This document shows positions 48,698 through 50,937 of a DNA stretch of 64,000 bases, piece after piece. Both the position numbers and the translations under genes were made by a program. The stretch is from Blastococcus saxobsidens DD2 (GTDB lineage: Bacteria; Actinomycetota; Actinomycetes; Mycobacteriales; Geodermatophilaceae): positions 2,645,541 to 2,709,540 of the forward strand of contig NC_016943.1 in NCBI RefSeq assembly GCF_000284015.1, written 5' to 3'. Positions within the stretch are counted from its first letter, which is position 1; every line of letters begins with the position of its first letter. A model generated the notes under the pieces. It worked only from the letters and a program-made list of their open reading frames with translations, was not told the origin of the DNA and searched no databases.

Positions 48698-49216
48698 CTA
48701 CCCGCCCGTCGTGAGGGTAGCCAACACCGCGGGGTAGGCCTGCTCCGCCGCGGCCCGGAGCTCGGCGTCGGTGCGGTCCTGGACCGGGTGCGGGACCAGC
48801 ACGCACGGCGCCGGGAAGCCGAGCGCCGCGCCCTGCAGCCGGGCCGCCTCGGCGAATGCCTCGCTGGCGAGGAAGACTCCGACCACGCCGCGGCGCTCGA
48901 GATCAGCGATGTCGTGCACACTGCACGACGTGCACGAGCCCTAATCGGCCAGCGCCTCGATGACCACCTCGCACTGCTCGGCGATCTCGTGCCGCAGGTC
49001 CACCGGGGCGGTCCGGGCGAAGGTCGGCTTGCGGTACCGGCGCACCCGCGCGCCGTCCGCGGTCAGCAGCTCCTCGAGCCGGTCGAGGACGACGTCGCCG
49101 CGAGCCTTGCTGATGTCGAGCAGGCCGACGCTGCGGCCCCGGAGCGATGTCGGGCGGGGCAGCAGCTCCCGGGCCGACGTCCGCCGCTCGCCGGTGGGAT
49201 CCAGGACGGTCCTCAT
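48698..49216 (-). CDS. UGSC-family selenoprotein with UAG-encoded selenocysteine
   Basis: The frame encodes 172 residues if the internal TAG at 48941-48943 is read as selenocysteine. Before it comes VDLRHEIAEQCEVVIEALAD. After it come GSCTSCSVHDIADLERRG, VGVFLASEAFAEAARLQGAA and VLVPHPVQDRTDAELRAAAE. The TAG falls exactly where this family has Sec (UGSC motif) or Cys, and both flanks are uninterrupted family sequence. A hairpin starts 11 nt after the TAG, the spacing of bacterial SECIS elements. The true stop (48698-48700) is also TAG, so recoding must depend on context. UAG-directed Sec has been shown experimentally in Geodermatophilus and Blastococcus. The family is thought to be redox-active, but the reaction is unknown. 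The ATG overlaps the stop of the thioredoxin-domain gene by 4 bp. The alternative is a nonsense-mutated pseudogene. Confidence 0.85.
48911..48929 (-). promoter_or_regulatory. putative bacterial SECIS hairpin of the UGSC gene
   Basis: Inside the coding frame, GTCGTGCA and TGCACGAC form a perfect 8-bp stem around GTG; with the closing A-T pair open, the apical loop reads AGTGT and contains the GU expected for SelB recognition. The stem starts 11 nt after the TAG, matching the distance in E. coli fdhF. SelB must bind such an element to deliver Sec-tRNA. Confidence 0.7.
48941..48943 (-). other. UAG codon read as selenocysteine (candidate recoding site)
   Basis: On the minus strand the codons read GCC-GAT-TAG-GGC-TCG-TGC, that is A-D-[TAG]-G-S-C, aligning the amber codon with U of the UGSC motif. 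Reading it as a true stop would leave a 91-residue fragment lacking the active site. Confidence 0.8.
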
Positions 49217-50610
49217 GCGTGCACCTCTCTGGTCACCGGGGCGCTCCCGGTCTTCCCGGACACCCAGCCGCCGACGATCGCACTGAACAGCCCCGCGTCG
49301 CCGCCGGCGTGCGCCACCAGCAGGCCGCCGGGGCGGAACTTGGGCAGCTCGCTGCCGGCCAGGGCGGCCGGCACCCCCTCGGCCATGCCCCCGGCCCCGC
49401 GCACCAGCTCGTCGGCGGGGAGGGTGAGCAGGTCGTCGAGCTCGGCGAGCAGGCGGGCACGGTCCCAGCCGGCCTCGCGGAACACCCGGCCGTGCTCCGG
49501 CGAGACGACGAGCATGGCGTCGAACCCCATCGGCAGCTTGGGGTGGGCGTTGACCCGCAGGCAGGCCGCGAACGTGCGGGCGAGCGACCCGGGCTCGCGG
49601 CTGAGCTGGTCCACCACCGGCTGCACGCCCGACCCGGCGAAGACGGTCACCGCGTTCCCCGGCACACCCCGGTCGGCGGCGAGCGGGGCGAACGGGCTGT
49701 CCTGCTCCCGCTCGGCGAAGCAGAAGGTGAACTTGCCGGGGTTGCCCAGCGTGGCCCGGTCCACCTCACCGGGGCGCCCGCCCCCGACGTTGCGCACCAC
49801 CAGCTGGAGCGCCCGGCCGATCGTGGCGTTGGCGCGGTTGCCCTGCCCGAGCGCGTTGACCCCGCCGTTCATGCCGATCCGCTCGGCCACCGGCCCGTTC
49901 ACCACCACGACGGGCCCGGAGAAGTACGTGGTCGCCAGCAGCCCGTGCAGCGCGAACTCCTCCGCGGACGCCGCCTCCAGCGCGGCCAGCACGACCGGCA
50001 GGTGCTCCGGCAGGCACCCGGCCATCACCGCGTTGACCGCCACCTTCTCCACGGTGCACTCGACGAGGTCGGGCGGCACGACGGCGACCACCTCGCCCGG
50101 GTCGCGGGTCGTCCCCCGCAGCATCCGCAGCACCCGTTCCGGCGTGGGCGGCACCACCGGCAGCCCGTCGGTCCAGCCGCGGTCGAACAGCGCCTCGTGC
50201 TCGTCCTCCAGGTCGGCCAGCTCCACCCGGCGGCTGGCCAGGCCGCTGCCGCCGTACCGGGCCTCCAGGGCGTCGATCCGGAAGGGGTCCACCGACAGCG
50301 ATCCGCAGCCGGGCCGGTGCTCGGGCAGCCCCTCCCCCAGGTCGGGCACCCCGGTGAGCTCCGCCCACTGCTCCCGGCTCCACCCGACCACGCGCGCCGT
50401 CTCCGCGCCGCCCTCCACGCGCAGGAGCGTGGGAACGGTCTCGACACCCAGGCGGTAGGACAGCTCCAGCTCGGTGTCGTCGCCGTCGAACCACCCGGCG
50501 TCGTCCTGGCACCACACGGCCGCACCCAGCTGCCGCAGGACCGGCTCGACGAGGACGCACGTGGGGCAGTCGTGTTTGACCACGGCCACGAGGCCGTCCG
50601 GGAGCCGCAC
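49213..50610 (-). CDS. thioredoxin-domain protein fused to UGSC-associated domain
   Basis: About 465 residues. The first 90 form a thioredoxin fold: LVAVVKHDCPTCVLVEPVLR with a CPTC redox pair and LGVETVPTLLRVEGG with the cis-proline. The remainder is a large domain I cannot name (ALFDRGWTDGLPVVPPTPER; VAVNAVMAGCLPEHLPVVLA; NGGVNALGQGNRANATIGRA; RVNAHPKLPMGFDAMLVVSP), to my knowledge found beside UGSC-type genes. The start is the GTG at 50610, where homology begins; the open frame is longer but reads as low-complexity upstream. Its stop overlaps the UGSC start (ATGA), implying coupled translation and a shared redox role. No signal peptide is present, so it acts in the cytoplasm. Confidence 0.75.
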   Translation of the reverse strand: MRLPDGLVAVVKHDCPTCVLVEPVLRQLGAAVWCQDDAGWFDGDDTELELSYRLGVETVPTLLRVEGGAETARVVGWSREQWAELTGVPDLGEGLPEHRPGCGSLSVDPFRIDALEARYGGSGLASRRVELADLEDEHEALFDRGWTDGLPVVPPTPERVLRMLRGTTRDPGEVVAVVPPDLVECTVEKVAVNAVMAGCLPEHLPVVLAALEAASAEEFALHGLLATTYFSGPVVVVNGPVAERIGMNGGVNALGQGNRANATIGRALQLVVRNVGGGRPGEVDRATLGNPGKFTFCFAEREQDSPFAPLAADRGVPGNAVTVFAGSGVQPVVDQLSREPGSLARTFAACLRVNAHPKLPMGFDAMLVVSPEHGRVFREAGWDRARLLAELDDLLTLPADELVRGAGGMAEGVPAALAGSELPKFRPGGLLVAHAGGDAGLFSAIVGGWVSGKTGSAPVTREVHA

Positions 50611-50937
50611 GCTCGCGACCGTAACCCAGTTCCCGGTCCCTGGCGCATCCGCCCACCGGGGCTCCGGGCGAACCTCCGGGGACGGCCCCACCCGGCCGCG
50701 CCGTGAGCACGCGAGGGGCCGCATGCTGGGCTCCACGTGGGCGGTGCGGTGCCGAGCCAGCCGCCGACGCGCGGGCGAGCGGCCTCCGGACCTGCTCGAC
50801 GGCTGACCGGACGCCGCGCCGGCGAACCGGTCACGAGGGCCCCCGGCAAGGGAAGGATTCCGCAGAAAGTCCAGCGGGAACGCTCAAGCTTCTCCGGCCT
50901 GAACCGATGCCATGGCAACGGCCAGAGGAGGCATGCG
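50611..50937. other. 327-bp divergent intergenic region
   Basis: No gene is supported. It holds the promoters of the thioredoxin/UGSC unit on one side and of the diguanylate cyclase on the other. Near the cyclase a FliA-like element is visible (50883-50909). The rest is GC-rich without an evident repeat. Confidence 0.4.
50883..50909 (+). promoter_or_regulatory. candidate sigma-28 (FliA)-like promoter of the diguanylate cyclase gene
   Basis: CTCA (50883-50886) and CCGATG (50904-50909), 17 nt apart, resemble the CTCA-N15-17-GCCGAA/T promoters described for motile actinobacteria. The cyclase GTG starts 29 bp later with a separate AGGAGG site. The match is short, and a similar pair occurs by chance elsewhere in the window. 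Confidence 0.3.

Follow-up and report, generated by a model that had tools for sequence, protein, structure and literature searches.

The DNA analysed here (the window) is a stretch of 64,000 nucleotides from the chromosome of Blastococcus saxobsidens DD2, a bacterium whose genome of 4.88 Mb is present in one contig. Its minus strand carries a gene of the UGSC family that begins with an ATG start codon and continues for 91 codons, a TAG triplet and a further 80 codons in register (minus-strand frame 49216-48698; Table 1). Around the internal TAG codon, the frame translates as ...EALAD*GSCTSCSVHDIADLERRG..., and besides this single triplet no further lesion is present in the frame up to the terminal stop codon, which is TAG as well. 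The read-through protein matches both the Pfam model for UGSC proteins (PF24696; E-value 6.5e-44, 150.5 bits, cut-off 25) and the NCBIfam model UGSC_fam (NF041046; 148.4 bits, cut-off 125); both scores exceed the curated cut-offs, and these matches, together with the [UC]GSC motif, place the protein in the UGSC family. A preliminary description, made from the nucleotide sequence of the window, had placed a gene with one TAG exactly at the U of UGSC and with no other lesion at 48698..49216. The reading of the frame, the profile matches and the orthologues described below bear this out, including the absence of other inactivating mutations from the window copy. The coordinates are correct, but the strand had not been named: the gene is located on the minus strand, and the plus-strand translation of the same positions differs from the UGSC frame. 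The start of the UGSC gene is overlapped by 4 bases by a second gene, henceforth the partner gene, whose mechanically derived open reading frame extends to position 50736.

Table 1. Location of the genes, codons and RNA features considered in this study.
Feature	Position	Strand	Description and basis
UGSC family gene	48698..49216	-	172 codons and a terminal stop, counted across one internal TAG; profile matches
Internal TAG codon, residue 92	48941-48943	-	Sec/Cys position; orthologues, Cys in homologues
Terminal stop codon of the UGSC gene (TAG)	48698-48700	-	Frame reading
Predicted bacterial SECIS hairpin	48911..48929	-	GUCGUGC-AGUGU-GCACGAC; loop begins 18 nt past TAG; comparison
Partner gene	49213..50610	-	465 aa (protein database); thioredoxin-like CPTC domain and domain of about 340 aa
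tRNA-Sec, anticodon CTA (CUA)	1523196-1523287 of the genome contig		Rfam 65.3 bits, cut-off 47
Coriobacteriia reductase cluster	L113:3601-17377 (JAUNNF010000009.1)		Glycine-type, with selA, selB, CUA tRNA-Sec and selD on one contig

Conservation of the internal TAG codon

When 112 genomes of the family Geodermatophilaceae were scanned, UGSC matches were found in 54 of them, with 95 matches altogether. Exactly one TAG codon is present in 72 of these 95 matches, 23 contain no stop codon, and TGA occurs in none of the 95. The 36 orthologues that we fetched (the window gene counted) all possess a single pre-terminal TAG at the U of UGSC, at the same residue; their terminal stop codon is TAG in six cases, including the window gene, and TGA in the remaining ones. 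Given 72 family matches with exactly one TAG, none with TGA, and the same residue affected in each of the orthologues, the presence of TAG at the UGSC site is not a matter of chance. In the stop-free copies that were aligned, the TAG site is occupied by cysteine, as the preliminary description had led one to look for: 11 distinct copies read CGSC (12 rows, L016 and L156 being the same place fetched twice) and another four (L022, L023, L024 and L025) read CAGC or CGAC.

A search with the first half of the UGSC gene, which takes in proteins of about 50-159 amino acids only and is silent on the number of full-length entries, gave 7,982 matches; among the matches listed (at least 120 proteins), all are 91 amino acids long and end at the TAG codon, and several are named 'hypothetical protein'. 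Standard annotation thus cuts such genes at TAG, as had been anticipated. Since many database entries end at UAG, enzymes of this kind are easily overlooked. The truncated entries and the presence of a release factor 1 gene in the genome would both fit an inactivating mutation that has left behind either a pseudogene or two short genes, yet this explanation is at odds with the retention of TAG in 36 of 36 orthologues and with the selection that acts on the codons behind it. Among these orthologues, the dN/dS ratio is 0.32 upstream of TAG versus 0.27 downstream, so that selection is not relaxed after the TAG codon, and in none of the 36 is there a stop codon within 70 codons past it. On the basis of this conservation and the unrelaxed downstream selection, we rejected inactivation of the gene, which we regard as very improbable.

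Selenocysteine machinery and a predicted SECIS element

The genome of B. saxobsidens DD2 contains a gene for a tRNA-Sec with the anticodon CUA (Table 1), which is followed by selA and selB, with selD positioned just upstream on the other strand. The encoded proteins score 418.3 bits (SelA; TIGR00474), 293.1 bits (SelB; TIGR00475) and 387.7 bits (SelD; TIGR00476), all of which exceed the respective cut-off. Neither a UCA tRNA-Sec nor any second tRNA-Sec was found in the genome with RF01852 and ARAGORN, and the remaining five RF01852 matches are Ser, Tyr and Leu tRNAs. Hence, the selA, selB, selD and CUA tRNA-Sec genes for which the preliminary description had proposed a search are all present in the same genome, and the CUA tRNA is the sole tRNA-Sec detected. 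ARAGORN calls this tRNA 'tRNA-Pyl', presumably on account of its anticodon, and one could take this label to mean that UAG is decoded as pyrrolysine. Rfam, in contrast, assigns the molecule to tRNA-Sec with 65.3 bits, the genome is devoid of a pyrrolysyl-tRNA synthetase (PylS; best match 20 bits versus a cut-off of 178.15), the homologues carry cysteine at the site in question, and selA and selB adjoin the tRNA gene. These observations led us to reject decoding as pyrrolysine, the probability of which we consider to be practically negligible.

Release factor 1 is encoded in the genome (469.1 bits; cut-off 423.25), a finding that counts against the reading of UAG as selenocysteine; given its presence, UAG also serves as a stop codon, for instance at the end of the UGSC gene. 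UAG is found at known Sec/Cys sites in more than one protein family, namely in two UGSC and two formate dehydrogenase (FDH) genes. The second UGSC gene (VGDUGSCSSWSLHD) and both FDH genes (NQARIUHSSTVPGLG) contain TAG at the Sec site and a hairpin. This set of FDH and UGSC proteins agrees with the selenoproteins listed for the family in the accessible portion of a published report, which names FDH and UGSC plus AhpC in B. saxobsidens (PMC5330540).

The hairpin downstream of the TAG codon is a predicted bacterial SECIS element. In a comparison that covers the fetched TAG copies rather than all 72 TAG matches of the family scan, an RGTNT loop (AGTGT, AGTCT or GGTCT) starts at exactly +18 in 69 of 69 TAG copies (36 UGSC orthologues, 11 other UGSC genes, 14 FDH genes and 8 second-type UGSC genes), whereas all 15 distinct Cys copies lack it at this position. 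In 68 of the TAG copies, a stem of 5-7 uninterrupted base pairs closes the loop; L146, the 69th, was scored for the loop. Between types, the stems vary on both sides (GUCGUGC/GCACGAC versus GUCGUGG/CCACGAC), and both sides are altered also in a further pair (CGUCCCC/GGGGACG versus GGUCCCC/GGGGACC). Like the TAG copies studied here, Escherichia coli fdhF possesses a GGTCT loop at the same +18 past its TGA codon, while its stem departs from a simple 7-pair rule. Synonymous variation among the 36 orthologues drops about tenfold in the hairpin codons (0.03 versus 0.35 elsewhere), and the serine codon within the hairpin is AGT in each of them, a triplet that is used for only 2 of 149 serines across eight genes of the B. 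saxobsidens DD2 genome. Folded alone, the hairpin of the window gene is no better than shuffled sequences (z -1.11; 26 of 200 shuffles equal it), and it has a competing stem; the case for a SECIS element therefore rests on comparison.

UAG and UGA as probable selenocysteine codons within and outside the family

The exact CUA tRNA-Sec pattern is present in 101 of the 112 Geodermatophilaceae genomes, representing nine of the 12 genera of the family. It is absent from the nine genomes of genera g5-g7 (G066-G074; fragmented assemblies), seven of which contain a UCA tRNA-Sec, and it gave no match in G097 and G098 (completeness 72-80%). Five genomes of genera g6 and g7 (G070, G071, G072, G073 and G074) encode an FDH of another type (DSCNRT-TGA-HAPS) with TGA at the Sec site and GGTCT at +18; one FDH row of G072 shows five TGA codons, counted over a mixed frame. 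No TGA-type FDH Sec site was found in the g5 loci examined. Genera g6 and g7 have retained the UGA state within Geodermatophilaceae. Anticodon and Sec codon are concordant in the family genomes wherever both were located; the FDH Sec site of G079 was not located, so that this genome stands outside the comparison. Both a UCA (on a short contig) and a CUA tRNA-Sec are present in G058 (contigs C17 and C11), the former possibly as a contamination.

Readthrough of UAG codons happens in bacteria, and the UGSC gene might accordingly be translated at a low level by an ordinary near-cognate tRNA, with any selenocysteine being incidental. This we deem highly unlikely in view of a dedicated CUA tRNA-Sec encoded beside selA and selB, of a loop whose spacing from TAG is constant in all TAG copies examined, and of the fact that in g6 and g7 the anticodon UCA goes along with TGA as the FDH Sec codon. 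Because TAG occupies the site at which many relatives carry cysteine, and because the genome provides a matching tRNA, it is very likely that the cell's own CUA tRNA-Sec inserts selenocysteine at this codon (residue 92). The proposal of a recoded UGSC gene made in the preliminary description thus finds support in the sel genes, the CUA tRNA-Sec and the Cys-containing homologues. SelA would make the Sec-tRNA, and SelB would bind the hairpin and bring the Sec-tRNA to the UAG codon in competition with release factor 1; elsewhere, including at the end of the UGSC gene, UAG would remain a stop codon. A gene in which UAG stands for selenocysteine at one site and for termination eighty codons on offers a clean natural test of ribosomal discrimination.

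UAG-programmed selenocysteine was reportedly described for Geodermatophilus and Blastococcus by Mukai et al. in 2016. The preliminary description had referred to such a report, and the accessible portions of two papers that cite it state the same (PMC5330540; PMC5133445). As far as these portions go, the system described in 2016 and the one studied here share the family, the CUA tRNA-Sec, and UGSC and FDH proteins with UAG at the Sec site. UAG-encoded selenocysteine in UGSC proteins is, by these sources, already published for Geodermatophilaceae, and the window gene is a further case. To the 2016 system as it is known from the citing papers, our analysis adds its scope (101 of 112 genomes), the genera with UCA and TGA, and the hairpin comparison.

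A GTDB-wide scan for CUA tRNA-Sec genes yielded 27 stretches, which by their titles stem from Blastococcus (16), Klenkia (6) and, with one each, Modestobacter, Geodermatophilaceae, Frankiales, Jatrophihabitans and Coriobacteriia. The tRNAs in the stretches titled Frankiales and Jatrophihabitans are nearly identical to the tRNA-Sec of Geodermatophilaceae. The stretch titled Jatrophihabitans (L091) has selD and selA in the same order as Geodermatophilaceae, and a tree of selA places it among Blastococcus entries. Either a wrong record title or a misplaced contig may lie behind this. On the same tree, selA of B. saxobsidens DD2 pairs with that of Blastococcus capsensis (100/98); together with the relatives of the partner protein given below, this pairing places the host in Blastococcus or near it.

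The CUA tRNA-Sec of the Coriobacteriia metagenome (JAUNNF010000009.1; 64.2 bits) is unlike that of the family. It is encoded next to a glycine-type reductase cluster (Table 1) whose genes for selenoprotein B (TIGR01917; 672 bits, cut-off 602.2) and selenoprotein A (NF040748; 274.6, cut-off 130) each carry a TAG codon at the selenocysteine position. Reductase C beta and alpha, thioredoxin reductase, SelA, SelB and SelD, all encoded on the same contig, score above their cut-offs, and a GrdE/GrdG-like protein encoded upstream scores under its own. Among 297 genomes drawn from the order to which this metagenome belongs, JAUNNF010000009.1 alone shows the CUA pattern. A literature search, which did not extend to the contents of the 2016 report, found no work linking UAG-selenocysteine with Coriobacteriia. 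Judged by its gene content, this metagenome is a predicted second UAG-selenocysteine lineage, unrelated to the one in Geodermatophilaceae. With UGA/UCA genera inside the family and a second, unrelated lineage, the path of the code change is open to direct study.

The partner gene and a weak likeness to GrdB

The N-terminus of the partner protein is a thioredoxin-like domain with a CPTC motif; its best named relatives are Blastococcus proteins annotated as 'thioredoxin family protein', with 92-94% identity over the part searched. The partner domain of about 340 amino acids adjoins UGSC in 36 of 36 orthologues and in 23 of 27 other loci (the exceptions being L023, L149, L155 and L156), and is fused with UGSC in one open frame in five loci (L026-L029 and L153). 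It is also present in all eight second-type UGSC loci.

GrdB is the selenocysteine-containing subunit of glycine reductase. UGSC shows a weak likeness to GrdB (hhalign probability 66% and E-value 5.4e-5 for the two, 59 columns), and the U-G-[ST]-C-T-x-C and PHP motifs of GrdB (PF07355) and UGSC align, Sec on Sec. The two proteins differ in size (172 amino acids for UGSC versus 437 for GrdB), and each has a different partner. The GrdB protein of the Coriobacteriia cluster (L113:4895-6205) matches NF041046 over the Sec region with an E-value of 6.6e-5 and 23 bits, which is under the cut-off of 125; this match gives a second hint that the Sec domains of UGSC and GrdB may be akin.

The UGSC product might work together with the product of the overlapping partner gene, whose thioredoxin-like CPTC domain could return the selenocysteine of UGSC to its reduced form, similarly to what is known for GrdB. 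The two would form a two-protein reductase in which selenocysteine reacts with a substrate and is then regenerated by the thioredoxin domain. Overall, we consider it probable that at least two separate changes from UGA to UAG as the codon for selenocysteine have occurred, one within Geodermatophilaceae and an independent one in a Coriobacteriia lineage, and that UGSC and its thioredoxin-domain partner constitute an undescribed two-protein seleno-reductase in the first of these lineages.

UGSC genes in a marine survey contain, in the accessible portion of that report, an in-frame TGA in contrast to the TAG found here (PMC2398784). The same portion supposes a thioredoxin-like fold for UGSC (PMC2398784), whereas the model predicted here has an alpha/beta fold that is matched by flavodoxin-like and similar chains.
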